Shown: positions 25,418 through 42,938 of the stretch, in pieces | Layout: the number at the start of each line of letters is the position of its first letter | Position numbering within the stretch: position 1 is the first letter of the stretch | Virus record (IMG/VR): IMGVR_UViG_3300020442_001756 | Coordinates: 1-43,688 of that record | DNA from: a virus | DNA: 43,688 nt | Direction: 5' to 3' (one strand) | Notes under the pieces: generated by a model | Database searches by the model: none | Told to the model about the DNA's origin: nothing | What the model saw: the letters and a program-made list of their open reading frames with translations, nothing else | Translations under genes and position numbers: made by a program

Positions 25418-25448
25418 AGGTGTGATGTCGATATTATTAATATACACG

Positions 25449-25470
25449 AAAAAACACCCCTGTGGGGTGC
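25449..25470 (-). terminator. Rho-independent terminator before helicase gene
   Basis: The minus strand has CACCCC-ACA-GGGGTG (six pairs, three-base loop) directly followed by TTTTTT. It ends the tiny-gene operon 25547-27168 and isolates the helicase gene. A GTGGCACACAAG element precedes the stem. Confidence 0.8.
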
Positions 25471-25546
25471 TTGTGTGCCACTTTCCTAGGTGGTTGCTCA
25501 CCGTCTGGCGGTTGTGGTCTGTGTGGATTTGGTAGACTGATTTCAC

Positions 25547-27690: not shown

Positions 27691-28196
27691 GAGAATACAC
27701 ATCCTAAACTAACTCTATATCCACTGTTAGGTGCATCACCTCGATGGATTTTATTAGAGTCAAACATAACAATTCTACCCTCTTTGAATGGTATTTCTTC
27801 ATCACCTACCCACGTGGATCCACTGTTACCATGTGCCATATAAATGACTGTTATCTTCTCATTTGGTGCATCGTGGTCAGTGTGGTCCACTCCCTTCAAT
27901 CCACTGACCTGACCATTAACTAGAATACGGTCACATTGTGATACTTTATCTTTTAATATGTCATTGATGATGCTACCACGTAGCAAGTGATTAAACCATG
28001 AGTTTAACTCTTGGGGCACTTTCCATGTTTCATGCTCCATAATAATAGTGCCAAAGAATCTACTACCCTCTTTATATGTTGCTTTCGATGAGTTACTAAA
28101 CGTCACTGGATAGTGCTCATAATATCCACTCACCGCGTCAACTATCCACGGTTTGAAGTATCCATCGATGACAGTATAATTATTACTCGGTAGCAC
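27687..28196 (-). CDS. 2OG-Fe(II) oxygenase (HxD...H), paralogue A
   Basis: 169 residues from GTG 28196. Metal ligands are H105-T-D107 (GVDHTDHDAPNEKITVIYM) and H151 (IHRGDAP), with R161 as the likely 2OG-binding residue. The N-terminal YTVIDGYFKPWIVD lines up with MRVIDNYFPDWMVK of paralogue B, which argues for a start near here. ATG 28265, preceded by AGGA, would add 23 residues inside the upstream gene and remains possible. A pair from tandem duplication. Confidence 0.8.
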   Translation of the reverse strand: MLPSNNYTVIDGYFKPWIVDAVSGYYEHYPVTFSNSSKATYKEGSRFFGTIIMEHETWKVPQELNSWFNHLLRGSIINDILKDKVSQCDRILVNGQVSGLKGVDHTDHDAPNEKITVIYMAHGNSGSTWVGDEEIPFKEGRIVMFDSNKIHRGDAPNSGYRVSLGCVFS

Positions 28197-28401
28197 TATC
28201 TGATTGAGAATCGATAAGTTTCCTTCTTGCCAATCTTTGCATGTTTCGTGCTTTGTGCAATTCATCGCGTAATTCCTTTGCAGCATTTATTCTCTCAATA
28301 ATACTATCATTGAGGTCATCACCTAAAATCCTATTATTATATTCTTGTAACTTAGCAAGCATTTCTCTTGCCTTTAATTCAGCATCGTCCGCCTGACTCA
28401 T
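28183..28401 (-). CDS. Small coiled-coil protein (72 aa)
   Basis: ATG 28401 gives MSQADDAELKAREMLAKLQE..., a long charged helix (IIERINAAKELRDELHKARNMQRLARRKL). The start is fixed by GAGGT seven bases upstream and an ATGA overlap with the preceding stop. Probably oligomeric. Function unknown. Confidence 0.6.
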   Translation of the reverse strand: MSQADDAELKAREMLAKLQEYNNRILGDDLNDSIIERINAAKELRDELHKARNMQRLARRKLIDSQSDSATE

Positions 28402-28604
28402 TGTGTTACCTCTGTATACTCCCAGTTGGCATCTTCGGGCACATCTACCCAAAACCAAAAATCTGGATTGTCAATAGCACTTAGAAACCATCTATCAGCA
28501 CGTTTGTGCTCAATGTAAACAAGTGCCTTACTATTTAAGTAATTAGCATATGTTTCTCTTGCTTTATCACTCTTCGGTGATACCTTCGCTTTGTTTCTTA
28601 GCAT
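28398..28604 (-). CDS. Small hypothetical protein (68 aa)
   Basis: 68 residues: a basic N-terminus (MLRNKAKVSPKSDKARETYA) and an aromatic acidic C-terminal part (ADRWFLSAIDNPDFWFWVDVPEDANWEY). It overlaps the methyltransferase end by seven bases and so is probably translated with it. It could serve the methyltransferase/nuclease pair, but nothing in the sequence shows this. Confidence 0.55.
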   Translation of the reverse strand: MLRNKAKVSPKSDKARETYANYLNSKALVYIEHKRADRWFLSAIDNPDFWFWVDVPEDANWEYTEVTQ

Positions 28605-29434
28605 AATCGTGTCAGTAGATTGTCTTGATATGGTTTGATACGCTCAATGCACATTTGATGATATGTTTCATCAATCTCAAAACCAATAAAGTTTCTCTTC
28701 TCTTCTAGGCATATTTGAGCAGTTGTGCCACTACCCATGAATGGGTCAATAATTAAATCATCAGGATTAGACCATGTAATAACATGACCACGTGCCAATT
28801 CTTCGGGCATTGTTGCAGGATGTTTGTAAGATGATTTAGATGATTGTCCAAATCCACCACTATTTACAATGCGCCAGATATTAGTCCGAGCACCATATTC
28901 ACGTGTTGCTTTACTCTTCTTACCTGCATCTTCAAGTGTGCCATCCTTCTTACGTGCCTTAGCATTGCCCCATGATGAGATGCCTGCCCACTTATTCTTT
29001 TTATCCATAATGATATTCACTGTCTTAGGTTTACCCTTGGACAATATAAAACAATACTCAAATGCTTGAGAGTATCTCACACTGTGTGGACCACTTGCAA
29101 ATGAGATACCAGTCTTTTCATATATCATTGTGTCATGTAGTCTTAAACCACACTCATCCATAAAATATAATGCTTGTCGAAAACTACTGCCAGTCTCACC
29201 ACCTTTGACAGTAGCATCGCCCACATTCCACATAATAACACCACCCTGCTTCAATACACGAGTGAGTGCCTTTGCTACTTGTTTGAATACATCGAAATCC
29301 CATTTACTTGAATCATTATATGTCCTAAGGTCATCATATGGTGGTGAGGTCACACATAGGTCAACACTCTCTGCATCCATAGTATTCATACCATCGATGC
29401 AATTCATTAAATGAGTGGTATTAATATCGAGCAT
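28598..29434 (-). CDS. Beta-class DNA methyltransferase (N4-cytosine or N6-adenine)
   Basis: 278 residues of the N6_N4_Mtase family. Catalytic motif IV TSPPY is at 29-33 and SAM-binding motif I DPFMGSGTT at 230-238, the beta-class order (IV before I). Serine in SPPY is commonest in N4-cytosine enzymes but also occurs in adenine enzymes. The residues 150-210 insert, rich in Lys and Ser, is the likely target-recognition region. I chose ATG 29434 because the longer GTG start at 29470 would lie within the promoter 29461-29490. It lies downstream of a putative nuclease. Confidence 0.88.
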   Translation of the reverse strand: MLDINTTHLMNCIDGMNTMDAESVDLCVTSPPYDDLRTYNDSSKWDFDVFKQVAKALTRVLKQGGVIMWNVGDATVKGGETGSSFRQALYFMDECGLRLHDTMIYEKTGISFASGPHSVRYSQAFEYCFILSKGKPKTVNIIMDKKNKWAGISSWGNAKARKKDGTLEDAGKKSKATREYGARTNIWRIVNSGGFGQSSKSSYKHPATMPEELARGHVITWSNPDDLIIDPFMGSGTTAQICLEEKRNFIGFEIDETYHQMCIERIKPYQDNLLTRLC

Positions 29435-29460
29435 TAAGCAGCAAAAAAGGGCACGTAGTA

Positions 29461-29490
29461 ATGATACCACATGCCCACATGTCTTGTCAA
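29461..29490 (-). promoter_or_regulatory. Promoter TTGACA-18-TATCAT for methyltransferase
   Basis: The minus strand has a perfect -35 TTGACA (29490-29485) and -10 TATCAT (29466-29461) with an 18-base spacer containing CATGTGGGCATGTGG, a direct repeat of CATGTGG. The start point would be about 20 bases before ATG 29434. Confidence 0.7.
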
Positions 29491-30167: not shown

Positions 30168-30497
30168 TTATCTATCGTCCACATGTGGCAGCATCTCATT
30201 TCCAGGATGACAGTTGACTTCACCATGATAATTTCTTTTATCATAAAAGTGTGTGTCTTCAATCTCTAAATCATCCCACATATGTGGATAGACACATAGA
30301 CAACACTTATTCATTGGTTGTCTACTACCTTCGGGATTAGGTTTAGTTGATACACATAGTGTGATATACTCATCACTAATAAATTCAATCGTGCCTGTCA
30401 TTTCACCATACTTTGCAGGCATTCCCACTTCAAGGGATTTGAGGATGTTTTTAATTTCTTTTGGCACTGATTCAGATAAGAATAATGGTGTTGTCAT
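30168..30497 (-). CDS. Conserved hypothetical protein (109 aa)
   Basis: 109 residues. A beta-rich core (GEMTGTIEFISDEYITLCVS, then NKCCLCVYPHMWDDLEI) and a C-terminal KRNYHGEVNCHPGNE. I associate this pattern with an uncharacterised protein frequent in cyanomyoviruses. Cys-Cys-x-Cys and His residues could bind metal. It overlaps the upstream oxygenase by four bases (ATGA). Function unknown. Confidence 0.65.
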   Translation of the reverse strand: MTTPLFLSESVPKEIKNILKSLEVGMPAKYGEMTGTIEFISDEYITLCVSTKPNPEGSRQPMNKCCLCVYPHMWDDLEIEDTHFYDKRNYHGEVNCHPGNEMLPHVDDR

Positions 30498-31111
30498 AAT
30501 CGTAAGTTATCGATATCATTCCCAAATACTCCTTTAATAAAATAATTAAATGCCACTGAGTATCGTGGTAGATTTGTATTACACTTACTCACACTGTGCG
30601 GTAGATGTGATGGAAATAATATAACCATGCCCTCTTCGGGTTGAATACTTACCTCTCTCATATTATAGATGTTTGATTCACTTAAATCAGGATTAACAGT
30701 CTGAGTGATGTAAGTAGGTGACATTGCAGGCACATTAAATCTAAACTCTCCTGATTCGGGTGGTGTCTTAATGTATAGACATCCACTAAACATAGAGTTA
30801 ACGTGTGAGTGCTGAGCAGCAGAATCTCCCTCGCGATGGTAGTTGACCCACGAGGATTGATGTTGAATATAATGCCTTTGTCTAGCAATTCCGAGCACAT
30901 CGTGGACATATCTGTCCATCTCATTGTCAACTATCGCCATAGTTTCAGGCGATGATGTTAACCATTGAGTGTCAAGTGACATACTTCCATTATTAATATA
31001 TTCACTCTCTATGTGCTCAACATCGGTGTTGCTAACGTCACTAATAATAGTTTCAGTCAACTCCACCATGTTAATATAAACAGGTTGAGAAAACAAAGGC
31101 AAAACTTCCAT
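30494..31111 (-). CDS. 2OG-Fe(II) oxygenase-like protein (HxH type)
   Basis: 205 residues of the 2OG-FeII_Oxy_5 pattern: N-terminal LPLFSQPVY, AAQHSHVNSMFSGCLYI with H101-S-H103, then GMVILFPSHLPHSV with H172 and R183 (LPRYSVAFNYF). The first metal segment reads HxH rather than HxD. Substrate unknown. The stop is shared with the next start (ATGA). It lies at the downstream end of the six-gene oxygenase run. Confidence 0.78.
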   Translation of the reverse strand: MEVLPLFSQPVYINMVELTETIISDVSNTDVEHIESEYINNGSMSLDTQWLTSSPETMAIVDNEMDRYVHDVLGIARQRHYIQHQSSWVNYHREGDSAAQHSHVNSMFSGCLYIKTPPESGEFRFNVPAMSPTYITQTVNPDLSESNIYNMREVSIQPEEGMVILFPSHLPHSVSKCNTNLPRYSVAFNYFIKGVFGNDIDNLRL

Positions 31112-31303: not shown

Positions 31304-32029
31304 CTATTTAACAATATCGTGCCTCCGAGGTTTGTCAAGGGTCTTCATAATGTTTTTAACTGTTACGGGGTCGAATCCTGCTACACCCGTGTTTTGGATA
31401 GGTGGGACGTTATTAATCTCATGCTCTGTGAATAATGACTGTCTCACATCAGGGTCCATGTATTTGTATGCAAGGATATACCTATTATACATGAATTTTG
31501 GTGTGGGTGTGCGTCCTGTGTGGGGAATACGACCATCAAATATCACCACTCTGCCAGGTCTTGGTGCTACTAGGTGCACTGCGTCTAGATTGTGGTCAAA
31601 GAATACTGTTTCACCACCCCACTCTGGATGCCACACATCATTAAGATATACTAATACAGTTTTGTTGGATTCAACATGATGTGGTGAGTCAACATGAATA
31701 CCAGGTGAATTGCCATGTCTCAATACATTTACATATGATGAGTATAAATGGGCACGAGGGGGCATATTTGGGCAAACTGCTTCCAAATATGTGAGCACAT
31801 CTAAGTATAGACTGTTATCACTACCATCAATGCCTGCATTCTGAAAGAATGTTGGGTCATCAACAGGTGTAAAGTTATAGAATTGATGAGTCCAATACAT
31901 GCCACCCAAATCTACATTAGGTTGGTCAGGTGTTGGTGGTGCATCAGTCCTACTAAACTGATATGGTAGACACACAAATTCCTGAAACAATTCAGGTTTC
32001 ATTAGACGTGTATCAAAAACTTCTATCAT
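31304..32029 (-). CDS. 2OG-Fe(II) oxygenase (HxD...H, prolyl-4-hydroxylase-like)
   Basis: 241 residues with a clear double-stranded beta helix: GIHVDSPHH with H112 and D114, VYLNDVWHPEWGGETVFFD, then PGRVVIFDGRIPHTGR with H170 and R183. This is the P4Hc-type arrangement, typical of hydroxylases acting on protein Pro/Asn/Lys or small amino acids. It overlaps the preceding gene by 17 bases. Its C-terminal 50 residues extend beyond the core. Substrate unknown. Confidence 0.85.
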   Translation of the reverse strand: MIEVFDTRLMKPELFQEFVCLPYQFSRTDAPPTPDQPNVDLGGMYWTHQFYNFTPVDDPTFFQNAGIDGSDNSLYLDVLTYLEAVCPNMPPRAHLYSSYVNVLRHGNSPGIHVDSPHHVESNKTVLVYLNDVWHPEWGGETVFFDHNLDAVHLVAPRPGRVVIFDGRIPHTGRTPTPKFMYNRYILAYKYMDPDVRQSLFTEHEINNVPPIQNTGVAGFDPVTVKNIMKTLDKPRRHDIVK

Positions 32030-32633
32030 TAATCCAATTACCCATGACGTTTAGTGACATAACATATCTATTCTCTATTGATTTACTCTTTTCAGTTTTA
32101 TGTGTCAACCAACCTGGAAAGAATAAAACATCATTAGTCTCTACCTGAATAGGGACATAATCCATTTCTTTATCCCAATAGTAATAGTCTAGAGGTTCTC
32201 CCTTCTTATATGATAGTAGGGGATTTTGCACCAATAGTCTACCACTATTTTCAGGCACTTGCAAGTATGCCGCCACTGCCACAGTCACACCTTGATGGTG
32301 ATGTGATTGTGTGAATGCGTGCTCTGGATGTATATTAATCCATGAATCTGCTAGGTATTTCTCCATGGGTTTACAATTCCATGTTGCCCACACCTCTTCA
32401 ATCTTAGGATACATCCACTCTAAGAATGGTTTTAACTCATCCCATGAGTGTGGTGGGTGTTGTTGATTCATCACCACTGTGGTAACACCACCACTCTCAG
32501 GTGTGCTCAGATTTTCATTATTAATCTTATCCTCTGCCATTTTAAGATACTCATCCACCTTCCATTTGAATGAGTCAAACTTAAAATCATACTTGTCTTT
32601 GAATATAATAGGAAATGGATTAACTGAGCGCAC
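32013..32633 (-). CDS. 2OG-Fe(II) oxygenase-like protein (HHH type)
   Basis: 206 residues from GTG 32633, chosen because AGAGG lies eight bases upstream and because SVNPFPIIF then forms the usual family N-terminus. The first metal segment is QSHHHQGVTVAVAAYL (H111-H113), followed by VLFFPGWLTHKT with H178 and R189. The HxD carboxylate is missing. It overlaps the cupin gene upstream by 14 bases. Confidence 0.75.
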   Translation of the reverse strand: MRSVNPFPIIFKDKYDFKFDSFKWKVDEYLKMAEDKINNENLSTPESGGVTTVVMNQQHPPHSWDELKPFLEWMYPKIEEVWATWNCKPMEKYLADSWINIHPEHAFTQSHHHQGVTVAVAAYLQVPENSGRLLVQNPLLSYKKGEPLDYYYWDKEMDYVPIQVETNDVLFFPGWLTHKTEKSKSIENRYVMSLNVMGNWINDRSF

Positions 32634-33300
32634 GGTTAAACCTCTCTTCACCTTTACAGTGCTCTACATACATTCTGGCAATCATGGGCACACTGAGTGA
32701 TAACCTCTTGCCTTTTGGTTTAGCACAATGATACTGACGTGCAGGGATGTATAACATATCACCTGGTTTTAGCATCACATTAATTGCAACATCCAAATGC
32801 TCTTCATTACTAATCAATAGATTAGTTGTTTGTGGCACCATGTATGATGCTCTATTTTTATATACTGTCCACTCTGTCTCTCCCTCAACTTGAATAATAA
32901 AATTCATTGCAAGGTCTTCGTGTATATTAAATGACCCATGTCCCTTAATACCACAATATACATGCATTGCTGCATGTATTGCTGGAAACTGTCTTTCAAT
33001 CTCGTCTAGTATTTTCTGCTTGCCATCCATGTGCTCAAAATTATTAATGATGAGACCACATCCATCATTAAATGCATCAAAGCAGTCAGTCTTAGATTTA
33101 TGCCTTGGTCCCCATACAAATTGATATTCAGGCACGGGCACCTTCTGTCCATCCCGTAGAAATTCTAGGTCATAAAATTGTGGGTTATTCAGACAATACT
33201 CAACCTCTGCCCACGTTACATATTGCTCTGGGTTTTCAATAGCACCTTCAAAGTGCTGTGGTTTATCATCAAGTACCCAGTTTTTCTCTAAGAACATCAT
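32620..33300 (-). CDS. JmjC/Cupin_4-like oxygenase
   Basis: 226 residues resembling the JmjC-type ribosomal oxygenase family: FNIHEDLAMNFIIQVEG with H127 and E128/D129, then EWTVYKN, LKPGDMLYIPARQYHCA with H191, and RLSLSVPM. Such enzymes hydroxylate Arg or His in ribosomal proteins or act on other proteins. It is shorter than cellular members (which are about 370-400 residues), lacking the C-terminal dimerisation and winged-helix parts. Overlaps with both neighbours (32 and 14 bases) indicate operon coupling. Confidence 0.78.
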   Translation of the reverse strand: MMFLEKNWVLDDKPQHFEGAIENPEQYVTWAEVEYCLNNPQFYDLEFLRDGQKVPVPEYQFVWGPRHKSKTDCFDAFNDGCGLIINNFEHMDGKQKILDEIERQFPAIHAAMHVYCGIKGHGSFNIHEDLAMNFIIQVEGETEWTVYKNRASYMVPQTTNLLISNEEHLDVAINVMLKPGDMLYIPARQYHCAKPKGKRLSLSVPMIARMYVEHCKGEERFNRALS

Positions 33301-33910
33301 GATTAGCAGTGAAATTAAGATTAAGTATCACACGAAATGGGTCACGTGTAGGATTACTAGATGCATGGAATTGATGACCATCAAATACAAATAGTTTATT
33401 TGCTTCAGGTGTTACTCTGTGACACTCTGTGTATTTTTGAGTTTTTGCAAGTCCCCATCTGTCATCGACTGTGCCATAGTTAGGGTCATCGTATTCATTA
33501 AAGAATACAGTATCGCCTGAGCAGTCATGAAGATAGAATAATGCGGCGTAGTGGTCGTCTTCATGGTCAGTGTGTGGTAGGTTTGGAATATCCTTACCAT
33601 TATTTAACTGCAATGCCAATCTAATACGAAAGAATTGGATGTCACCCAACTCATCACATATATTATCTAGCAGTGGTTTGAATAATGGTAGAAAATGAGA
33701 TTCTACACCATCACCATCTAATAGTAAATGAGTAAAACCGACCGTCCTTTTCTCATTTCTAATACCCATTGCTTTATCTACTGCATCAACAGGATATGAT
33801 ATATCTTCAGACAAGAAAAACCACGGGAAACCAGTTTGTCCCGTGGTCAAGTTATACAGTCTAGAGAGATAGTTTTGTCCTATTAGGTTGGTTAGTTGGG
33901 TATATCTCAT
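33269..33910 (-). CDS. 2OG-Fe(II) oxygenase (HxD...H)
   Basis: 213 residues with a complete triad H113-T-D115 (NLPHTDHEDDHYAALFYL), H182 (FDGHQFHASSNPT) and R193 (PFRVILNLNF). The layout is common in cyanophage oxygenases annotated as prolyl-hydroxylase-like. It overlaps the upstream oxygenase by 50 bases, the longest overlap in the run, so the real start may be further in. Substrate unknown. Confidence 0.83.
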   Translation of the reverse strand: MRYTQLTNLIGQNYLSRLYNLTTGQTGFPWFFLSEDISYPVDAVDKAMGIRNEKRTVGFTHLLLDGDGVESHFLPLFKPLLDNICDELGDIQFFRIRLALQLNNGKDIPNLPHTDHEDDHYAALFYLHDCSGDTVFFNEYDDPNYGTVDDRWGLAKTQKYTECHRVTPEANKLFVFDGHQFHASSNPTRDPFRVILNLNFTANHDVLREKLGT

Positions 33911-34526
33911 GATAATAATTACTAAATGCTGTTACATTAAATGATATAGAGATTCTATCACCATCAGATGCACTCTGATTCACACGGTGTGGTAGATGTG
34001 CAGGGAATATAATCAGTTTATCTTCCTCTGGATACATATCATATTCATCAGCAATAACTTCATTCCATCTATCAAAGTTATCACTACATCCCCAAAACTC
34101 ACGTAAGTGTTGCTCTTTAGGGTCACGTTGAAATGTAATATCACCACTACAACAATTAGGTAGTGAGAGATAATATACACCAGACAATACAGCACCAGGA
34201 TGTGTATGGATTACATTATAATCACCACGCTTGTTGATATTAATCCACAAGTTAGTCATCCTTAATGTATACTCTTGAAACCCCATGTCATCAGCAGCAC
34301 CATAACACCATCGCATGATAATATCATACAGTGGTTTGAATGCATTTTGTTTGAGCACTTCGGGTCTAAAGTCCCATGATTGCCACCCACCTAGATTAGA
34401 TGATTTCCTACCGTCTGGGTCTTCTGCCTTAACATGATGGCAAAATTCAATCATCTTATCTCTATCAGTCACCCCACAGTTGTCAATGGTCCAGACAGGT
34501 GTGGGAAACAAATCCTTTCGCTTCAT
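33861..34526 (-). CDS. 2OG-Fe(II) oxygenase-like protein (HxH/HPG type)
   Basis: 221 residues of the 2OG-FeII_Oxy_5 pattern: LFPTPVWTI, YNVIHTHPGAVLSGVYYLSLP with H107 and H109, then KLIIFPAHLPHRV with H180 and R191 (DRISISFNV). The position of the acidic ligand is occupied by His or Gly. It starts with an ATGA overlap with the 128-residue gene. First of the run of oxygenases downstream of the halogenases. Confidence 0.8.
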   Translation of the reverse strand: MKRKDLFPTPVWTIDNCGVTDRDKMIEFCHHVKAEDPDGRKSSNLGGWQSWDFRPEVLKQNAFKPLYDIIMRWCYGAADDMGFQEYTLRMTNLWININKRGDYNVIHTHPGAVLSGVYYLSLPNCCSGDITFQRDPKEQHLREFWGCSDNFDRWNEVIADEYDMYPEEDKLIIFPAHLPHRVNQSASDGDRISISFNVTAFSNYYHEIYPTNQPNRTKLSL

Positions 34527-34909
34527 TCCTCATCAAATACGAATTCTCTGTCAGTTACATTAGGGTCAACATGCTTTTTATACAGTGCAAGTGCTTCGAT
34601 TGCTCCTGATAGTTTGTTGAGTTGGTCTTTCTTCTGCTGCAATTCTTCTAGACTAATCTTAGTGATAGTAGAGGTATAATGCATGTTGTCAAGTGCTTCA
34701 CTCAACTTCTTATACTCTTCTAGAGTATCATGATGTTGCTGCAGGAAATTCATGACCAGTTGGTCAAAGGAAATGAGTCCTTCAATAGGACTGGCATTTT
34801 CAATCTTTTCTGCCTCTGTAGGCACATTGGCACGCTCTACCAAATTAACTTCAGTAACAGTTTGACCAGGACCTGCACCTACGCCAGGATTTTCAACGAT
34901 TTCAGACAT
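34523..34909 (-). CDS. Coiled-coil hypothetical protein (128 aa)
   Basis: 128 residues: a Gly/Pro/Glu-rich flexible N-terminus (ENPGVGAGPGQTVTEV), then two long helices (LVMNFLQQHHDTLEEYKKLS and KISLEELQQKKDQLNKLSGA) and an acidic end. Probably oligomeric. It abuts the 282-residue gene and overlaps the first oxygenase. It could be a scaffold or partner for the enzymes, but that is inference. Confidence 0.6.
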   Translation of the reverse strand: MSEIVENPGVGAGPGQTVTEVNLVERANVPTEAEKIENASPIEGLISFDQLVMNFLQQHHDTLEEYKKLSEALDNMHYTSTITKISLEELQQKKDQLNKLSGAIEALALYKKHVDPNVTDREFVFDEE

Positions 34910-35758
34910 TTAATTAAACCTCTCGATGTTTTTATTTAGTTTGAGAATTTCCTCTTGAGTTTTAATTCTCTCAGATAATGTAGTCGTCTCAGTAAAATTC
35001 TTACGACGATTATACTCCATGATTGCATTGTTATCAAGGTCATGTTGATTTGCATTCTCAATCACAACTTCAATATCTTTGCTCCGTAAGTAATCACGGT
35101 GGACTGGTATCCACTGGACCAGTGGTGTGCCTGCCTTCACAAGATATGCACCCTCTTCTAACTTCTGCCAAAAGAGTTGCACATTAATCTCATAAGAATA
35201 TGATGGGTCAACAATACCATTTGGCACTGTGAATCTATCTTCATCCCAATATGCAATGGGTTGTTGAATGAATACAATATCCTTATGTGCCTGCACACGC
35301 CATGGCAATTCCAGTTTGATTGTGTAATCAAGTACTGGTTTACTTTGGTCCATCAAATGACGCATACCCTCAGTCTGCTCAGGGATGTGTGCCTTAATAT
35401 ATCTATTACCATAGAATACAGTATTAGCACACCACTCAAAGTTAACACCCTCACCATCCATGTTGATAATAAAATCAGCAGGTGCTGGAATAATATAACC
35501 AGAGTCCATGATAGCATGTAATGCTGGGCAAGTTACGGCATGATTCCATAACTCTGGGACTGATTCATCAGGACGCATTGTCCTCTTCCATAGATTTTGT
35601 GCACGTAACCATGGACATCTACGCTCTTCAACTCTCTGCTGTTTGAGTGCATCAGTCCTCCACTTCCTGTGTAGTTTACGTGCAGGAAATATGGGATGTA
35701 GTTGTGCAACTCCCTCATCAAGAGCAGCAAAGCGGATCCACTTCTTTCGCTTAAACAT
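34910..35758 (-). CDS. Unrecognised protein linked to halogenases (282 aa)
   Basis: 282 residues from ATG 35758: a basic N-terminus with Arg-rich helices (KLHRKWRTDALKQQRVEERR), then beta-rich segments including CPALHAIMDSGYIIPAPADF and EGAYLVKAGTPLVQWIPVHR, and a charged helical C-terminus. The core pattern resembles DUF6065-type proteins, a weak resemblance I cannot confirm. No catalytic motif is evident. The start overlaps the halogenase stop by eight bases; an alternative ATG at 35782 is inside the halogenase. It could supply a substrate carrier or reductase function, both unproven. Confidence 0.6.
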   Translation of the reverse strand: MFKRKKWIRFAALDEGVAQLHPIFPARKLHRKWRTDALKQQRVEERRCPWLRAQNLWKRTMRPDESVPELWNHAVTCPALHAIMDSGYIIPAPADFIINMDGEGVNFEWCANTVFYGNRYIKAHIPEQTEGMRHLMDQSKPVLDYTIKLELPWRVQAHKDIVFIQQPIAYWDEDRFTVPNGIVDPSYSYEINVQLFWQKLEEGAYLVKAGTPLVQWIPVHRDYLRSKDIEVVIENANQHDLDNNAIMEYNRRKNFTETTTLSERIKTQEEILKLNKNIERFN

Positions 35759-37349
35759 AGATATTCTTTTTAAGATACTCATAGTGTGTTAGTTGTCTTT
35801 CAGTCCACTCTTCAATACCAACACGGTCACGTTGATATTCATCATGCATGTCACTGACATTGTAGTCACCTTGATGGAATCCTGCTTCTTTCTTTTCATT
35901 AAATGCTGATGGACCAAAGGGTCGATACCCTAAACCAGCAGCAATGTAGATGGTGCCAGCATTCTCATCATGTAGTTTAGCGAATGTATTTTCTGCACTC
36001 TGCATCAAATCCAAAGCACCAGACAACTCCTCACATGTAGGAATTGCTTTGTCGTCTACCATCTTACCATAAGAAATAGATTCTGTCACGTCTCTCCAGT
36101 ATTGATTGTCCTCACGTGATGACAGTGTGTAGTGCAAACTGACGAAGTTTGCCATCGCTTCAATCATATTATTACACTGTCTGTTGAATGAATCTCTATC
36201 AAACTGTGTGGTGATATTATTACGACGCTCCAACACATCCACGAGATACAATACATTCTCATGTGTAGTCATGAGACCAGTTGATTCTAGTGGTTCTACA
36301 AATCCATATGATAGACCAATACCAACTACATTCTTAACCCATGCTTCTTTGTGCTTTCCATGTTTGATATTAATCTTCTTCATTTCAGCATTCTCTGCAC
36401 ATTTCGGGCAAAAACGGGCACTTAGATACTTTCTAAATTCTACCTCTGCCTCACACTCATTGATATAGTCAGAGGAATATACATATCCCGTGCCAATTCT
36501 ATTCCACAACGGGATATTCCACACCCATCCATAATCCATTGCCACACAATCTGTGTATGGCTCCATCTCGTTTTCAATATCTCTGTATTCAATCTTAGTT
36601 GCTAGTGCTGTGTCATTGAATAGTTTATGTTTGAATGGAACAAACTCACTACCCATATGCTGCTCAAGTAACAGTGACTTAAAACCTGTGCAGTCAATGT
36701 ATAAGTCAGTAGTGATAACTCCACCTTCAGTAGTCATGATGGACTCAATATATCCATCAGGTTTTTTAATTACATTCTCAATGTTTGCTTTAATATGCAC
36801 CACACCATTAGGTATACAATGGTGGTCACGTAGATATTGTCCAAACAATTCAGCATCAAAATGATATGACACATCTAGCATAGGATTCCAGTCAGTGCCA
36901 GGAATACTATCAGCATACTTAGTCTTTTCTGCCAACCACGTGGACTTATTACTGAAGCGAGCAAACTCTTCAGGTGGATATAAATCAGGATACTTGAGTG
37001 CTAACTCATAGAATCTGATAGGGTTGTCACAGTATGTGTCATTGATATTAAAATTACCAAAGGGATAATGGAATCTCTCACCTTTACCCTCTCTAAAATT
37101 CTTAAATGCAATCGATGTCTTATAAGTTGCGTTGCAATAAGGCATCCACTCTGCATCTTTATTGTGTAGACCTAGACGAATTAAAAACCTATTGAAGTGT
37201 CCGAGTGTAGACTCACCAACACCAACAGGTTTAACATCAGGACTCTCAATGAGAGCAATCTCCATATCTGGGAAACAATGTGACAACATTGCTGCTGTCA
37301 TCCATCCACTACTACCACCACCTACAATACATACTGATTCAATTTTCAT
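35751..37349 (-). CDS. Flavin-dependent tryptophan-type halogenase, copy 2
   Basis: 532 residues with family hallmarks: FAD-binding GGGSSGWM (10-17), VGVGEST (42-48), candidate catalytic Lys77 (ATYKTSIAF, equivalent to PrnA Lys79), the WxWxIP signature GWVWNIP (274-280) and the active-site GFVEPLESTG with Glu355 (PrnA Glu346). A CPKC pair at 314-317 is not a family feature I know. ATG 37349 is chosen because AGAGGA lies upstream; ATG 37373 lies within the previous gene. The enzyme would use FADH2 from a host reductase and a halide to halogenate an aromatic substrate. The related cyanophage halogenase VirX1 (Syn10) is known to iodinate. Confidence 0.9.
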   Translation of the reverse strand: MKIESVCIVGGGSSGWMTAAMLSHCFPDMEIALIESPDVKPVGVGESTLGHFNRFLIRLGLHNKDAEWMPYCNATYKTSIAFKNFREGKGERFHYPFGNFNINDTYCDNPIRFYELALKYPDLYPPEEFARFSNKSTWLAEKTKYADSIPGTDWNPMLDVSYHFDAELFGQYLRDHHCIPNGVVHIKANIENVIKKPDGYIESIMTTEGGVITTDLYIDCTGFKSLLLEQHMGSEFVPFKHKLFNDTALATKIEYRDIENEMEPYTDCVAMDYGWVWNIPLWNRIGTGYVYSSDYINECEAEVEFRKYLSARFCPKCAENAEMKKINIKHGKHKEAWVKNVVGIGLSYGFVEPLESTGLMTTHENVLYLVDVLERRNNITTQFDRDSFNRQCNNMIEAMANFVSLHYTLSSREDNQYWRDVTESISYGKMVDDKAIPTCEELSGALDLMQSAENTFAKLHDENAGTIYIAAGLGYRPFGPSAFNEKKEAGFHQGDYNVSDMHDEYQRDRVGIEEWTERQLTHYEYLKKNIYV

Positions 37350-38775
37350 AGATGGTCCTCTTATAATACTCATATGGTGATGGTAAACTATCTAGGTCCC
37401 ATTCAGGTATCTCTAGATTGTTAGCAGGGGCATCATCGGGCACACCTCCATGGAATTCTATCTCATTCATAGACACATTGTCAAATGGATTCCACCCATG
37501 TCCTGCCATCACTGCCAGTAGACCATCCAACTGACCGAATGTAATACCATCAATAAATGACGATGATGGTGACATAAACAGTCGCTGACATCTTTCAAGT
37601 AATCCAATCTTAGGATATCTAATGTTACTTACTGCTCTCCAATATGGTGAGTCATTACGTTGTGTCAATGAATAGTGCAGTGCAACAAATGATGAGAATG
37701 TGTCAAATGCATCACCTGCCTCACTATTAAATGTGTCTCTCATATACTGAGTGATATGACTTCTATTACCCATTGCTTTAATAAAAAACAATAGGAATGT
37801 ATGCACTGACAATAGACCATTAGATTCTAATGGCTCAATAAAACCAGAGGATAATCCAATAGATACTACCTTACCATTCCATATCTCTTTCTTACGTCCT
37901 GTCTTATATTCTACCAGTCTGAATCCTTCCATGTCTGTCTTCAGATGCGTTGCAAATTCATGCAATGCTTCTTTCTCAGTCTGATATTTACTGGAGAAAT
38001 TATATCCTGTGCCAACTCTACCCCACGTAGGTACACGCCACACCCATCCAGATGATAGTGCTGTGCAGTCAGTAACAGGCACCATTTCATTCTCAATGTG
38101 CACAGTATATTGCTTACGTGTTACCCATGCCCTGTCATTTGGTAGATAGTCACTGTAATCAATCCACTCACTATCATTAAGCATTGACTTAAATCCTGTG
38201 CAGTCAAAGAATAAGTCATACTCCTCATTTAATATACTCTTATCAACTGTCTCTTGGATATGCTCAACACCCCGTGGTATTGCATAGTTATCCCGTAACC
38301 AATTAGCAAACTTAACTGCATCAAAATGGAATCCAGTATGTTTGTCTAACGGGAAATGCTCATCATTTACGGGTATCTTATTAGCATCAGCACATGCTGC
38401 ACCCAAATAATAATCCTTGGCAAACTTATCGTTGCTCCAATTATATTTCTTGGCATTAAAAAACCACGTGTCAGGTGTTGCAAACCCTCTAGGCAATCCA
38501 AAAGGATATTGCCATGGTGTGTCACCTTGTTTGTGGAAGTTATGAAATCTTACTGATAGTTTGTATGTGGCATCACATGCTGCCATCCACTCTTCATCTT
38601 TTAATCCAAGGAAATATAACCACTGTCTAAAAAACTGTGTTGTTGATTCTCCTACACCCACAGTGGGAATGTTAGGACTCTCAAACAGAGTTACTTTCCA
38701 ATCAGGATATGCCTTAATCAAAGTAGAGGCGGTCATCCATCCAGCGGTGCCACCTCCTACAATACAAATTTTCAT
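37339..38775 (-). CDS. Flavin-dependent tryptophan-type halogenase, copy 1
   Basis: 478 residues: GGGTAGWM (7-14), VGVGEST (39-45), candidate Lys72 (ATYKLSVRF), GWVWRVP (243-249; Val instead of the usual Ile), and GFIEPLESNG with Glu317. All core residues are therefore present. It is 54 residues shorter than copy 2, and the two differ strongly in the substrate region, so they are probably old paralogues with different substrates. Its 3' end overlaps copy 2 by 11 bases and contains that gene's ribosome site. No Shine-Dalgarno site is clear at its own start. Halide and substrate are unknown. Confidence 0.9.
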   Translation of the reverse strand: MKICIVGGGTAGWMTASTLIKAYPDWKVTLFESPNIPTVGVGESTTQFFRQWLYFLGLKDEEWMAACDATYKLSVRFHNFHKQGDTPWQYPFGLPRGFATPDTWFFNAKKYNWSNDKFAKDYYLGAACADANKIPVNDEHFPLDKHTGFHFDAVKFANWLRDNYAIPRGVEHIQETVDKSILNEEYDLFFDCTGFKSMLNDSEWIDYSDYLPNDRAWVTRKQYTVHIENEMVPVTDCTALSSGWVWRVPTWGRVGTGYNFSSKYQTEKEALHEFATHLKTDMEGFRLVEYKTGRKKEIWNGKVVSIGLSSGFIEPLESNGLLSVHTFLLFFIKAMGNRSHITQYMRDTFNSEAGDAFDTFSSFVALHYSLTQRNDSPYWRAVSNIRYPKIGLLERCQRLFMSPSSSFIDGITFGQLDGLLAVMAGHGWNPFDNVSMNEIEFHGGVPDDAPANNLEIPEWDLDSLPSPYEYYKRTIYEN

Positions 38776-38790
38776 AATAAAGTTAATACT

Positions 38791-39219
38791 TTAAGTTGGG
38801 GGTACCCAGTTATCCACCCAAGGATCCCATGCTTTACGTCCTACTAACTGGACTTTTTTGGGGTCCTCTACGAATTCAGGGATAGAGGTCGGTGCAGTTG
38901 TTGATGCTTTAACGTTAGCAACATGGTCTTTCCATGTAGTTGTGCCGTTAAGTTGGTCTCTATACATCATGTCAAGTTGGTCACCCAAGGGACCATATGC
39001 CAATGCACGAGTGACAACTGCAGGGACGCGAGCATCTTCAGTGTCAGAGTGATGCACCACGACACCATTAATCATAACATGCTCATACGTGGCATCGTTG
39101 GGCACTTCGCACCATTTCAGGTCAGCGTCAGCACCTTCATAGACTTCAAATTTGTCTGCTTCATCAACGATATCAGACAACTGTCCAGTATTTGCATTTA
39201 CAAGAGCCCATTTAGCCAT
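38791..39219 (-). CDS. Tail-fibre-assembly-like protein (142 aa)
   Basis: 142 residues. MAKWALVNANTGQLSDIVDE opens with a beta hairpin; the second half has YGPLGDQLDMMYRDQLNGTTTWKDHVANVKAS, a segment I associate with tail-fibre chaperone-like proteins in marine phages. It sits between the adhesins and the halogenases. AAGGAG eleven bases before the ATG and a late promoter (39244) precede it. The assembly role is inferred from family and position. Confidence 0.65.
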   Translation of the reverse strand: MAKWALVNANTGQLSDIVDEADKFEVYEGADADLKWCEVPNDATYEHVMINGVVVHHSDTEDARVPAVVTRALAYGPLGDQLDMMYRDQLNGTTTWKDHVANVKASTTAPTSIPEFVEDPKKVQLVGRKAWDPWVDNWVPPT

Positions 39220-39243: not shown

Positions 39244-39251
39244 TATTTATT
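39244..39251 (-). promoter_or_regulatory. T4-type late promoter (AATAAATA)
   Basis: AATAAATA overlaps the TAA of adhesin copy 3 and lies about 25 bases before the 142-residue gene. The start of the halogenase island transcript may also depend on it. Confidence 0.6.
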
Positions 39252-40053
39252 AACCATAGTATTCATAAACTATGACGACGCCTTCTCGACCTCTAGCGCC
39301 ACGGTTACCCTCACGAGCTCCGTTTCCACCTGCTCCCCACGCTGCGTGAGATTGGTGTCTGTGTGCATAATTTCTTTGGACGTGAGACGATGGTTGTCCA
39401 CCTCCCATATATGACATACCAGTCGAGTGGTTGCCATAAGTATGATAACTTCCATGACCGTTACCACCACCGCCATAGACGTTGAGGTTACCACCACTTC
39501 CATTACCACCGATACCACCTGCGTGCTGTTGCCTACAGTTAGCACCATATCCACCAGATGCTGAGCAATAACCACCGAATGAAGAAGTGTTTCCACTACC
39601 ACCACATCCTGAGTAGTTAGTACCACCGCCTGGATTTCCTACTGTAACACTTTGACTGGTTACGTTAGTTACATCAATAACTCTTTGTGATGTACCACCA
39701 GCACCACCAGATTCAGCGAAACCACTTCCACCTCCTCCTGCACCAGTTACACTAACTTCAATAGTTTTTACATCGCTAGGTCTATTCCATGTGCCATTGC
39801 TGGTCCACACCTGCATTGACCTAAATCCACTGGTAGCAGATAAGTTTGCCCATGACATACTACTGCCATTGGTTGTCAAAAAGTTACCACTGGAAAGCGA
39901 GGGGACATTATAGTTAGACGAGCCAGAGATATTGCCGTTGATGTTAATGTTGTTAACTTTCAACGTGCCAAGTGCCGTGATGCTACCACTGGAAAGATCG
40001 AATCCAGAAATACCAGCAAGGTCTCTAACGTTACCAACTTTTAAGACAGACAT
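39250..40053 (-). CDS. Glycine-rich tail adhesin, copy 3
   Basis: 267 residues. An N-terminal attachment part (1-70) is followed by WTSNGTWNRPS and a glycine-rich body (about 105-250) with GGGGSGF, NPGGGTNYSGCGG, GGIGGNGSGG and GGGGNGHGSY. The body probably forms a polyglycine-II-type layered fold as in the S16 gp38 adhesin, displaying variable loops. The end is AHRHQSHAAWGAGGNG then VVIVYEYYG. The late promoter 40073 and AGAGGG ribosome site precede it. It is close to copies 1 and 2 in the body and diverged in the N-terminus. Confidence 0.85.
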   Translation of the reverse strand: MSVLKVGNVRDLAGISGFDLSSGSITALGTLKVNNININGNISGSSNYNVPSLSSGNFLTTNGSSMSWANLSATSGFRSMQVWTSNGTWNRPSDVKTIEVSVTGAGGGGSGFAESGGAGGTSQRVIDVTNVTSQSVTVGNPGGGTNYSGCGGSGNTSSFGGYCSASGGYGANCRQQHAGGIGGNGSGGNLNVYGGGGNGHGSYHTYGNHSTGMSYMGGGQPSSHVQRNYAHRHQSHAAWGAGGNGAREGNRGARGREGVVIVYEYYG

Positions 40054-40072: not shown

Positions 40073-40080
40073 TATTTATC
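40073..40080 (-). promoter_or_regulatory. T4-type late promoter (GATAAATA)
   Basis: GATAAATA overlaps the TGA of adhesin copy 2, about 20 bases before adhesin copy 3. It repeats the arrangement at 40906 and 39244. Confidence 0.6.
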
Positions 40081-40888
40081 AACCGTAAAACTCTCTTACG
40101 ACGACGACGCCTTCACGTCCTCTAGCACCACGGTTGCCGTGCTGAGCACCATTACCACCAGCACCCCATGCACAATGGGACTGATGTCGATGGGCATAAT
40201 TGGACTGACCATGAGATGATGGTTGAGTACCACCATAGTAACTACCACCAGCAGTGTGATTACCATATGAATAGTGAGACCCGTGACCATTGCCACCGCC
40301 CCCGTATACATTCAGCGATCCTCCAGACCCATTGCCTCCAATACCGCCTGCGTGCTGTTGTCTGCAGTTAGCGCCGTATCCACCAGACGCCGAACAATAT
40401 CCACCGAAGGACGAAGTATTGCCACCGCCACCACAACCAGAGTAATTTGTGCCGCCACCAGGGTTACCAACTGTGACACCAACACTGGAGACGTTAGTAA
40501 CATCGACGACTCTTTCGGATGTGCCACCTGCACCTCCTGATTCTTGGAATCCACTTCCACCTCCACCACCTCCAGTAACAGTAACTAGAATAGATTTAAC
40601 ACCGCTAGGTCTAGACCAAGTGCCATTAGAAGTCCACACTTGCATACTTCTAATACCAGTCGATGCTGATACTTCTGCCCATTGCAACCCACTACCAGTA
40701 GATTGCAGGAATTTACCTGAGTTACCAGTTTGAGGTGGAATTACATAGTTGGACTGACCTTGAATCTGTCCATTAATGACTAAGTTTCCAACGGTGAGTG
40801 TGCCAATCGTAGAGATACCACCACCAGACAGGGAGAATCCATACTGGTCGGTTAAATCTCGGATTGAAGCAACTTTTAGCTTAGACAT
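40079..40888 (-). CDS. Glycine-rich tail adhesin, copy 2
   Basis: 269 residues with the same layout as copies 1 and 3: N-terminal attachment part, GGGGGGSGF start of the body, SGCGG, YCSASGGYGANCRQQ, and a C-terminal AHRHQSHCAWGAGGNGAQHG ending VVREFYG. Differences from the sisters cluster in the GNHTAGGSYYGGTQPSSHGQ loop (residues 210-230) and the last 25 residues, which are the likely receptor-contact tips. Cys in AHRHQSHCAW is unique to this copy. No Shine-Dalgarno site is evident. Confidence 0.85.
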   Translation of the reverse strand: MSKLKVASIRDLTDQYGFSLSGGGISTIGTLTVGNLVINGQIQGQSNYVIPPQTGNSGKFLQSTGSGLQWAEVSASTGIRSMQVWTSNGTWSRPSGVKSILVTVTGGGGGGSGFQESGGAGGTSERVVDVTNVSSVGVTVGNPGGGTNYSGCGGGGNTSSFGGYCSASGGYGANCRQQHAGGIGGNGSGGSLNVYGGGGNGHGSHYSYGNHTAGGSYYGGTQPSSHGQSNYAHRHQSHCAWGAGGNGAQHGNRGARGREGVVVVREFYG

Positions 40889-40905: not shown

Positions 40906-40913
40906 TATTTATC
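40906..40913 (-). promoter_or_regulatory. T4-type late promoter (GATAAATA)
   Basis: GATAAATA overlaps the TAA of adhesin copy 1, about 20 bases before adhesin copy 2. Confidence 0.6.
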
Positions 40914-41718
40914 CGTAGTATTCGTAGACAACGACCACACCTTCACGACCTCGTGCACCTCTGTTACCTTCTCTAGCACCGTTACCACCAGCACCCCATG
41001 CAGCATGAGATTGGTGTCTGTGTGCATAGTTACGCTGCACGTGTGAAGCAGGTTGACCGCCACCGTAGAAAGATTGTCCACAACTATGGTTACCATACGA
41101 GTGATAAGAGCCGTGTCCATTACCTCCACCACCGTAGATATTTAGAGACCCGCCAGACCCATTGCCACCAATGCCTCCAGCATGTTGTTGTCTGCAATTA
41201 GCACCATATCCACCAGATGCTGAGCAATAACTGCCAAAACTTGATGTATTACCTGTGCCACCACATCCTGAATAGTTACTACCACCACCAGGATTACCAA
41301 CTGTGACACCAACGCTAGAAACGTTTGTCACATTAATCTGTCTCCTAGATGTGCCACCAGCACCTCCAGACTCACAGAATCCACTTCCCCCGCCACCAGC
41401 TCCTGTAACTGTAACCATGATAGTCCTGACACCAGATGGTCTATTCCATGTGCCATTACCAGTCCAGACCTGCATTGAGCGAATGCCTGCCGAGATATTT
41501 ACGTCTCCCCATGATAATGAGGACCCATTATTTGTTAAAAATCTTCCGCTGTTACCAGATGGATTTGGAATAATAAATCCAGAGGATCCAGAGATAGTGC
41601 CATCGATAACGATGTCAGTCACAGTCAGGTTGCCATTACAAGTAACACCACTAGAGGAGAAGGTGAAACCCCCAGCATTTTGTAGATCTTTAAGAGCTCC
41701 CAGTTTTAACTGTGCCAT
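40909..41718 (-). CDS. Glycine-rich tail adhesin, copy 1
   Basis: 269 residues. Attachment part 1-75, then VWTGNGTWNRPS (84-95) and the glycine-rich body: GAGGGGSGFCESGGAGG (106-122), SGCGG (C152), YCS (C165), NCRQQHAGG (C175), and HRHQSH (233-238). Conserved Cys and HxH residues could bind metal or form disulfides at the tip. The N-terminal 70 residues differ from copies 2 and 3, which suggests different attachment points or module exchange. AGGA and a CATAAATA late promoter precede the ATG. Confidence 0.85.
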   Translation of the reverse strand: MAQLKLGALKDLQNAGGFTFSSSGVTCNGNLTVTDIVIDGTISGSSGFIIPNPSGNSGRFLTNNGSSLSWGDVNISAGIRSMQVWTGNGTWNRPSGVRTIMVTVTGAGGGGSGFCESGGAGGTSRRQINVTNVSSVGVTVGNPGGGSNYSGCGGTGNTSSFGSYCSASGGYGANCRQQHAGGIGGNGSGGSLNIYGGGGNGHGSYHSYGNHSCGQSFYGGGQPASHVQRNYAHRHQSHAAWGAGGNGAREGNRGARGREGVVVVYEYYG

Positions 41719-41724
41719 TGTTTA

Positions 41725-42042
41725 CTATCCTACTGATTTATTTATGAAGTGTGGATAACAGAGTTTGTAGAAACTCCCACCCTTATTTAGTGAATTCAAA
41801 TGAATGTCATGCCACAGCATTTCCAACATATCTGCAACTGCAGGTGCTGGTGGAGTCTTATGCTTTTCAGCAATTTCATTTTCTTTTCTTATTTGCTCGC
41901 ACATTGCTTCCCACTGTGCACGTGGGGGTGCAGATGCATCATTATCTGGAAAAATAATTTCATCACCATCTTTGATAATGAAATTAACATCAGGTCGCAG
42001 TCTTGAGATAGCGTCTGCTTTCTCAGTATCAGTGAAATTCAT
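41725..42042 (-). CDS. XkdW/tail-assembly-chaperone-like protein (105 aa)
   Basis: 105 residues: LRPDVNFIIKDGDEIIFPDN followed by SAPPRAQWEAMCEQIRKENEIAEKHKT, a beta hairpin plus helix layout like XkdW-type proteins, then a C-terminal LEMLWHDIHLNSLNKGGSFY. It overlaps the fibre gene by four bases (ATGA), as tail-fibre chaperones often do. A folding-helper role for the fibre is inferred. Confidence 0.6.
   Translation of the reverse strand: MNFTDTEKADAISRLRPDVNFIIKDGDEIIFPDNDASAPPRAQWEAMCEQIRKENEIAEKHKTPPAPAVADMLEMLWHDIHLNSLNKGGSFYKLCYPHFINKSVG
41739..41746 (-). promoter_or_regulatory. T4-type late promoter (CATAAATA)
   Basis: CATAAATA lies in the last codons of the 105-residue gene, about 25 bases before adhesin copy 1. 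Confidence 0.55.
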
Positions 42043-42938
42043 CCTCTAACTTCCATTGCAATAAGTGAGCTGATTGACCTCATATCATTACTATCTCTAT
42101 CATTAATGTAGAGGTCTCTTGTGCCACCACTCCATGATGCAGATGCACCAACGGAATATGTGGTAGGATTCTGGGTATTAGGCATGTCCATATACTGTAT
42201 AAAACAGTTAAACATATCTCCACCAGTATCCCTATTATGATAGGTAGTAGCAACACTACCGCTACTAACGTTAGTGTTACCAGATAGTCCATTGGTAATT
42301 ATACCATTGTTTCTTAAGAAACCAAATGATGTAACGTGTCTAGCATTACTGTTAATCATTGCCATCAACAGAATCTTAGAGTTGGTGTGTGATGGTTGGA
42401 TAGTTACTTCCAAGTCAGGAATAGGAGTCAAGTTGTTGTTTCTAAGTAAGTATCTACTAGCAGGAGTTTGCGAGTATCTAACTTGCATCACTTGACCTTC
42501 ACCAATGTCGTTATCCTCACCACCAAGTAAGAACCACGATGCACCATTCTCAATAGTCACAGTCCTACCATTCTGAATGGTAACAGGACCAGCAGTGAAA
42601 CCATTGGTAAACTCTGCGCCACCATTCGCAGAGGGACCAACAGTCAAATCTTGCTCAATTTGTGGACCATTTGTCCTAATGATTGATTCTTCACCAACTG
42701 ACGGACCACCGCCACCTACATCATCCCAACCTGGCACACCTTGGGCAGCATCTTGCAGATATATCTGCGCCATATCTTCGGTAGTATTGTACACCAACGT
42801 GCCATATGCAGGTGTACCCAACGCATTAATTTGAGACTGATTTAAGCTAGGAAGATTGATTTGCTCGGTTACTTGGAGAGCTTCCATAATTGCTCTCGTT
42901 GTTGCATCAATCTGGTTTCCTATAATCTTGGTGGACAT
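42039..42938 (-). CDS. Tail fibre-like structural protein (299 aa)
   Basis: 299 residues. The N-terminus (MSTKIIGNQIDATTRAIMEA) is a baseplate or fibre attachment type. A shaft-like part has LTVGPSANGGAEFTNGFTAG. The C-terminal 150 residues look like a jelly-roll receptor domain (SHTNSKILLMAMINSN ... SSLIAMEV), which I have seen in cyanophage fibres. AAGGGG eight bases before ATG 42938 supports the start. A weak CTAAATAG lies just upstream. It is followed by its chaperone-like partner with an ATGA overlap. Confidence 0.7.
   Translation of the reverse strand: MSTKIIGNQIDATTRAIMEALQVTEQINLPSLNQSQINALGTPAYGTLVYNTTEDMAQIYLQDAAQGVPGWDDVGGGGPSVGEESIIRTNGPQIEQDLTVGPSANGGAEFTNGFTAGPVTIQNGRTVTIENGASWFLLGGEDNDIGEGQVMQVRYSQTPASRYLLRNNNLTPIPDLEVTIQPSHTNSKILLMAMINSNARHVTSFGFLRNNGIITNGLSGNTNVSSGSVATTYHNRDTGGDMFNCFIQYMDMPNTQNPTTYSVGASASWSGGTRDLYINDRDSNDMRSISSLIAMEVRG

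Follow-up and report, generated by a model that had tools for sequence, protein, structure and literature searches.

The 43,688-nucleotide viral sequence studied here, positions 1 to 43,688 of IMG/VR virus record IMGVR_UViG_3300020442_001756 (hereafter the window), belongs to a cyanobacterial virus and encodes two adjacent predicted flavin-dependent halogenases, A and B. We show that these halogenases belong to an inherited cassette that accompanies a particular kind of glycine-rich tail-tip protein. Our preferred reading, to which we give an even chance, is that A and B are anciently diverged, apparently competent halogenases of the VirX1 type that modify the tail tip post-translationally. 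The operon context, which the initial annotation of this sequence had missed, suggests such a modification by the pair and points to the tip as a candidate substrate. The two genes are as follows.

37339 to 38775, minus strand: halogenase A, flavin-dependent, A clade, 478 amino acids (Lys72, Glu317, GWVWRVP).
35751 to 37349, minus strand: halogenase B, VirX1 orthologue, 532 amino acids from the homologous Met (Lys77, Glu355, GWVWNIP).

The open reading frame (ORF) of B extends from 35751 to 37373, where an ATG is a possible start, and the homologous Met lies 8 codons later at 37349. All 8 other aligned B-type proteins begin at B's ninth codon; therefore, 37349 is the likely start. With this start, the last 11 nucleotides of A also belong to B. 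The same halogenase overlap is annotated in the phages P-TIM40, syn9, Syn10 and S-RIM44, and in P-RSM6 between two B-type copies; it is present in 23 of 45 A-B ORF pairs even with the longest ORF taken.

Both proteins match the PF04820 profile far above its cut-off of 21 bits (A, 302.7 bits, E-value 6e-90; B, 352.2 bits, E-value 6e-105), and both match phrog_2928. The flavin adenine dinucleotide (FAD) motif, the Lys, the Glu and the WxWxxP motif each have a role in flavin halogenases. A and B share the GxGxxG FAD motif and VGVGEST; the Lys and Glu are Lys72 (within ATYK) and Glu317 (within EPLES) in A and Lys77 and Glu355 in B (Lys85 and Glu363 if numbered from the ATG at 37373), and WxWxxP is intact in both. 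The initial annotation had listed exactly these residues for both copies, its numbers for B agreeing with a count from the Met at 37349, and had correctly noted the difference between GWVWRVP and GWVWNIP. Its statement that the copies differ by 54 residues holds for length (532 versus 478) and not for sequence, in which identity is only 202/533 (38%). Passages of PMC8407142 cover part of the catalytic residue roles. With the FAD and WxWxxP motifs and the Lys and Glu all intact, A and B are thus predicted to be flavin-dependent halogenases, and the E-values, together with a 126-row tree that places both in well-supported clades, indicate no chance resemblance.

Motif conservation was counted over 51 distinct A-type and 133 distinct B-type proteins, 72 from a third set of halogenases from other phages (N-type), and 117 bacterial ORFs. 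EPLE and YK are each present in 50 of 51 A-type proteins; among B-type proteins, EPLE is found in 133/133 and YK in 128/133. Median ratios of nonsynonymous to synonymous substitution (dN/dS) are 0.150 for A and 0.154 for B (35 close pairs each), indicating that both genes are under purifying selection. An AlphaFold2 model of A, built from 51 aligned rows of proteins from the window and from viral contigs, reached a predicted local distance difference test score (pLDDT) of 94.3. VirX1 tops the Foldseek list for this model; VIA-align gave Z 46.1 for AbeH and 43.9 for both PrnA and VirX1, and the root-mean-square deviation (rmsd) to VirX1, 1.9 Å over 467 residues, is the lowest among the matches listed. 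By superposition on AbeH, PrnA and VirX1, A has the halogenase fold. The earlier suggestion that both copies are probably active agrees with the conserved EPLE and YK, a dN/dS of about 0.15 and the confident model of A; activity is a prediction, and both copies look catalytically competent.

The sequence next to the catalytic Glu is EPLESNG in most A-type proteins and EPLESTG or EPLEATG in B-type proteins. These clade signatures plausibly fit two substrates, two sites or two steps, and demonstrate none of these. EPLES is absent from 16 of 133 distinct B-type proteins, and EPLEA replaces it in a sub-clade that includes P-RSM6, S-WAM1 and S-SZBM1 (our loci L005, L006 and L030); this variant might alter halide handling.

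The tree (quick search; a chosen plus random subset of 185 representatives, with bacterial rows added) was assessed by the Shimodaira-Hasegawa-like approximate likelihood ratio test (SH-aLRT). The A-type clade (18 rows, SH-aLRT 98) is separate from the VirX1 clade, which is the B-type clade (61 rows, SH-aLRT 97) and includes window B and the syn9 gene; the Syn10 gene (VirX1) is represented by the latter, with which it was merged at 92% identity. The divergence of A tracks that of B (Mantel r 0.887 over 45 distinct pairs; 0 of 2000 shuffles as high). An intact B follows 45 of 48 distinct A-type genes; B is frame-broken in L040 and there is no B in L011 and L044. This count excludes four A ORFs at contig ends and L026, which scored as A and falls outside the A clade. 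The A/B split is older than the sampled cyanophage genera. One halogenase inside the phage clades (L186, 4992-6581) lies on a contig binned as a Deltaproteobacteria/Myxococcota metagenome-assembled genome and is perhaps phage sequence or a transfer.

Around the halogenases, the window carries a block of genes in one direction, overlapping and beginning with the tips:

42039 to 42938, minus strand: gp35-like fibre-block protein, phrog_7459, with weak tail-fibre matches.
40909 to 41718, minus strand: glycine-rich tail-tip protein 1, phrog_863 ("tail fiber assembly"), PF21722.
40079 to 40888, minus strand: glycine-rich tail-tip protein 2, phrog_863/PF21722.
39250 to 40053, minus strand: glycine-rich tail-tip protein 3, phrog_863/PF21722.
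38791 to 39219, minus strand: small phrog_1787 protein, 142 amino acids, directly upstream of the halogenases.
34910 to 35782, minus strand: phrog_7084 protein, 290 amino acids, directly downstream of B, with a predicted dUTPase-like fold.
34523 to 34909, minus strand: 128-amino-acid protein, encoded between phrog_7084 and the oxygenase run.
33861 to 34526, minus strand: 2-oxoglutarate (2OG)-Fe(II) oxygenase, PF13759, phrog_81.
33269 to 33910, minus strand: 2OG-Fe(II) oxygenase-like, phrog_274, HTD...H...R motif, PF13640 below cut-off.
32620 to 33300, minus strand: JmjC_2 oxygenase, PF08007, nearest solved relatives the NO66/MINA protein histidyl-hydroxylases (E-value 6e-6).
32013 to 32651, minus strand: 2OG-Fe(II) oxygenase, PF13759.
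31304 to 32029, minus strand: 2OG-Fe(II) oxygenase, PF13640, phrog_274.
30494 to 31111, minus strand: 2OG-Fe(II) oxygenase, PF13759.

Six consecutive 2OG/JmjC oxygenase-like genes thus lie downstream of the phrog_7084 and 128-amino-acid genes. P-TIM40, syn9, Syn10 and S-RIM44 share the order tips, phrog_1787, halogenase A, halogenase B, phrog_7084 and oxygenases. The block occupies two genomic positions, after the baseplate lysozyme (P-TIM40) or before gp13 (S-RIM44); S-CREM1, Sf-FP1 and Sf-FR1 carry single-copy halogenase versions, and P-RSM6, S-WAM1 and S-SZBM1 carry versions in which phrog_7084 was not detected. The slot before gp13 in Sf-CH11 (L007, 9761-15923) holds a third form of the cassette, with an N-type halogenase, 2OG genes and, in place of window-type tips, other fibre-like genes (annotated as GspG- and LamG-like).

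Searches that started from the neighbouring genes revealed how tightly the block is linked. Among 50,697 phage records, a tblastn search with the tip hit 14, which reduce to 9 phages once duplicates are removed; each of the 14 has a halogenase within about 3 kb of the tip. For scale, 475 records carry a terminase with 60% or higher identity to that of S-RIM44. A halogenase adjoins phrog_1787 in 18 of 19 records, the exception (MEP301) being a 34-residue local match. For phrog_7084, the halogenase is a neighbour in 14 of 17 records; the 3 exceptions are only 26-27% identical, and the one inspected has no halogenase within 6 kb. Viral contigs were then scanned by the N-terminus of the tip and not by the halogenase, the best 80 of 294 matches giving 55 distinct loci. 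A halogenase lies downstream in 52/52 evaluable loci (3 of the 55 were too short), and phrog_1787 lies upstream of the halogenase in all 48 tip loci counted. By type, the 55 loci comprise 24 with A and B, 21 with B only, 2 with two B copies, 1 with A only and 7 without a halogenase above 300 bits; by a lower score limit, only 3 lack one, all on short contigs. B is frequently alone at tip loci and A rarely so; therefore, B is the core enzyme and A is accessory. Tandem B-B pairs occur in P-RSM6 (L005, 10410-13566)/L182 and in L124/L131, at two or more separate positions in the tree, so that halogenase expansion beside the tips arose more than once.

A comparison of two S-RIM44 isolates, KX349293 and KX349297, captured the cassette being exchanged. 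Their flanks are 93-96% identical in DNA (95.6% and 94.8% for the nearer flanks), and their large fibres share 51-58% protein identity. In KX349297, however, three other genes occupy the place of the tips, phrog_1787, the halogenase pair, phrog_7084 and the oxygenase run. None of the three matched a counterpart in the pairs compared, and one is 2OG-like by eye. The difference is a natural cassette swap.

We propose that the modification is post-translational and would take place during late infection, with A and B using host-supplied reduced flavin, oxygen, and bromide or iodide from seawater. Their targets would be exposed aromatic residues, Tyr or Trp, of the adhesin at the phage's own tail tip, A and B acting on different residues or in sequence, and the adjoining 2OG/JmjC oxygenases would hydroxylate other residues. 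Halogenation and hydroxylation together would mature the receptor-binding surface. We favour a protein substrate because of the linkage, the open active site of VirX1 described in passages of PMC8407142, and the JmjC neighbour nearest to NO66/MINA. We infer the receptor-binding role of the glycine-rich tip proteins from their annotation, their position and the precedent of S16-type gp38, a glycine-rich receptor-binding tip. Tyr149 and Phe161 are invariant in 147/147 aligned tip rows and Tyr164 is conserved in 125/147; these three are candidate positions of modification. More broadly, and with somewhat less than an even chance, several 2OG/JmjC oxygenases may join one or two flavin halogenases in a dedicated cassette that decorates a glycine-rich tip to give a halogenated and hydroxylated adhesin, with alternative tips bringing their own enzymes and the whole being exchanged as a unit.

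A wider glycine-rich pattern was surveyed by a threshold of our own choosing (22% Gly in some 150-residue stretch encoded on the same strand, from -5 to +3 kb). Such a neighbour accompanies 24/26 A-type, 57/66 B-type and 34/58 N-type halogenases, compared with 4/22 distant phage halogenases and 9/95 bacterial ones; unevaluable rows numbered 2, 14, 13, 9 and 22, respectively. At eight N-type loci (L101, L086, L052, L081, L099, L080, L176 and L173) the upstream glycine-rich protein belongs to phrog_2295, which matches the window tips weakly; a 2OG gene intervenes before the halogenase in some of them. The neighbours tested in L109, L085, L066, L092 and L103 are not glycine-rich tips.

Several observations weigh against modification of the tip in particular. 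The gp35-like gene failed as a discriminating control: scanning by it (best 80 of 190 matches, 44 distinct loci) gave a halogenase in 38/44 loci, with the other 6 too short, a linkage almost as tight as that of the tip. Linkage is therefore a property of the entire fibre block and does not point to the tip alone. The sole full-length exception is S-RIM50 (L388, outside the deduplicated 44), in which the gp35-like gene has no halogenase over 10 kb downstream; phrog_1787 is also missing and the tip match is only weak. The invariance of Tyr149 may be due to structure. The glycine-rich counts come from rows that share ancestry and from a self-chosen threshold and are therefore descriptive, and 24 of the 58 N-type halogenases have no such neighbour. 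A solitary A-type halogenase (L011, 5950-7371) with 73% identity to window A immediately precedes an RNA polymerase gene on a T7-like, cyanopodovirus-like contig (RNA polymerase, terminase and, by eye, a transaldolase-like ORF), with no tip match within its 11 kb; A can thus travel without B or tips. Halogenase relatives in S-B64 and S-MbCM6 are located away from tail-tip genes. Finally, VirX1 iodinates many small aromatics in vitro, according to passages of PMC8407142. Separately, an A-related halogenase (L044, 2488-3984) has psbA and genes for a DNA methyltransferase and a 2OG oxygenase nearby, and no tips of the window type.

A first alternative is that A and B halogenate small molecules during infection (free indoles, phenols or a host metabolite), the product being an antimicrobial, a detoxified compound or a signal, and that the tail region is only a storage site for accessory genes. 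The family is named for tryptophan halogenases, VirX1 accepts many small aromatics in vitro (PMC8407142, in part), antibiotic protection is suggested speculatively in a passage of PMC2984593, and the halogenase, 2OG and carbamoyltransferase genes of S-SSM6a are read as secondary metabolism in a passage of PMC7824862; the solitary A-type gene beside an RNA polymerase fits as well. However, the window proteins scanned include no other recognisable biosynthetic gene, the strict free-tryptophan box is absent, the S-SSM6a/S-SSM7 enzyme is distant (28-29% identity), and co-inheritance with the tip in 52/52 loci and the block swap are unexpected for a free-standing metabolic gene. We regard small-molecule halogenation as unlikely, though a serious contender.

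A second alternative is hitchhiking or a role at the host surface: the enzymes, lying in a hypervariable host-recognition region, would alter the host surface or block superinfection and be inherited with the fibres since both set host range. Passages of PMC7029224 describe such a region in cyanophages and pelagimyophages, with glycosyltransferases thought to change host surfaces, and the S-RIM44 block lies inside that region, just before gp13/gp14. Yet no glycosyltransferase was recognised in the block, which is unidirectional, has overlapping genes, begins with tips and is accompanied by protein-hydroxylase-like enzymes; this alternative seems to us rather improbable.

It is very improbable that A and B serve the fibres as assembly factors that bind FAD without catalysis, as their position beside a small tail-linked protein and the tips might suggest: EPLE and YK are kept almost throughout (50/51 A; 133/133 and 128/133 B), dN/dS is about 0.15, and the close relative VirX1 is active in vitro (PMC8407142, in part). 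A recent duplication that merely raises gene dosage, to which the adjacency and shared orientation of A and B and the existence of B-B tandems might point, has practically no chance, since 38% identity, separate clades (98 and 97) and co-divergence over 45 pairs rule out a recent or identical copy, in line with the initial annotation, and the tree contradicts it.

Among the proteins accompanying the halogenases in the tip cassette, the phrog_1787 protein is, to judge by its position, probably tail-fibre-associated and perhaps chaperone-like; no solved-structure relative was found for it, and the tip gave only chance low-complexity matches to solved structures. The confident model of the phrog_7084 protein (pLDDT 92.1) resembles dUTPases (VIA-align Z 9.8, rmsd 4.2 over 125 residues). 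The resemblance is in fold only, and we do not claim a dUTPase enzyme; dUTPases and tail fibres are both trimers. No flavin reductase partner was recognised among the window proteins scanned, a subset of the ORFs. An NCBIfam scan gave nothing near cut-off, and PADLOC returned nothing for the halogenases or phrog_7084. The label "DNA endonuclease V" of phrog_274, which recurs in cyanophage annotations, looks wrong: the window members at 33269-33910, 31304-32029, 27687-28286 and 27202-27702 show the motifs of 2OG oxygenases, and PF13640 is matched above its cut-off by one of them. Downstream of the oxygenases lie a SWI2/SNF2-like helicase, with weak similarity to PbeA/HamB defence models, and an N6/N4 DNA methyltransferase (24170-25546 and 28598-29470). 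An open frame of at least 3898 amino acids (2-11695) runs off the left end of the window and adjoins baseplate wedge genes.

Among the closest known systems is VirX1, which the initial annotation had named as a homologue. VirX1 (6qgm) is the best PDB match for both A and B, and its sequence equals Syn10 CPUG_00131 except for the first residue. CPUG_00131 comes second in a Syn10 pair of the A-B kind; the characterised enzyme is thus one half of the same natural pair. Window B resembles VirX1 in sequence (493 bits, 48% identity), clade, pair position, Lys/Glu and GWVWNIP, whereas A belongs to another clade and shares 32-37% identity with it in structural alignments. The earlier proposal is thus confirmed and can be sharpened: B is the orthologue of VirX1, and A that of the first gene of the Syn10 pair. 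Passages of the review PMC8407142 describe VirX1 as a trimer with a preference for iodide and a large open active site that accepts bulky substrates. No native substrate of VirX1 was found in the literature searched, which did not cover the primary VirX1 paper.

The Syn9 tandem prnA genes are the same A-B pair, in the same order and beside tips and oxygenases. They are already on record (1593|1524 in Table 3 of PMC3037559; "x2" in PMC2984593), but the excerpts of these papers merely count two tryptophan halogenases and leave the tail-tip block unmentioned. Where function is discussed, the passages of PMC3037559, PMC2984593, PMC10452541, PMC7824862, PMC9964418, PMC9146016, PMC8407142, PMC6224464, PMC7029224 and PMC5628999 treat halogenases as antibiotic or metabolite genes. 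The 2OG oxygenases of cyanophages are mainly assigned to nitrogen metabolism or DNA repair in excerpts of PMC3037559 and PMC2984593, and an excerpt of PMC9964418 also names protein modification in general. No proposal linking such halogenases to tail fibres was found in the excerpted literature searched, which excluded the primary VirX1 and Syn9 papers.

PrnA, RebH, PyrH and AbeH share with A and B the fold (best chains Z 43-46 for the A model), the FAD motif, Lys, Glu and WxWxxP. The C-terminal free-tryptophan substrate box of PrnA/RebH is YY-x5-E-x3-FW. Its strict pattern is absent from A and B (0/51 A, 0/133 B, 0/72 N), and alignments to PrnA end at PrnA residue 410-426; as the pattern is also missing from 115 of 117 bacterial ORFs and matches only 2, its absence says only that the phage enzymes are not strictly of the PrnA/RebH type. 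The S-SSM6a/S-SSM7 cluster likewise has a cyanophage halogenase adjoining 2OG oxygenases (passages of PMC7824862), but that halogenase is 28-29% identical, is accompanied by carbamoyltransferases and sugar genes, and has no tips within 8 kb.

Taken together, the enzymes are new members of a known family, and what merits attention is the tip-locked cassette with its two diverged copies. If the halogenases do act on the tip, the native substrate of VirX1, so far known as a broad iodinating biocatalyst, would be the tail tip; its open active site would have a reason, some of the abundant cyanophage 2OG oxygenases would have a role, and chemical halogenation would help to decide host recognition in the ocean.

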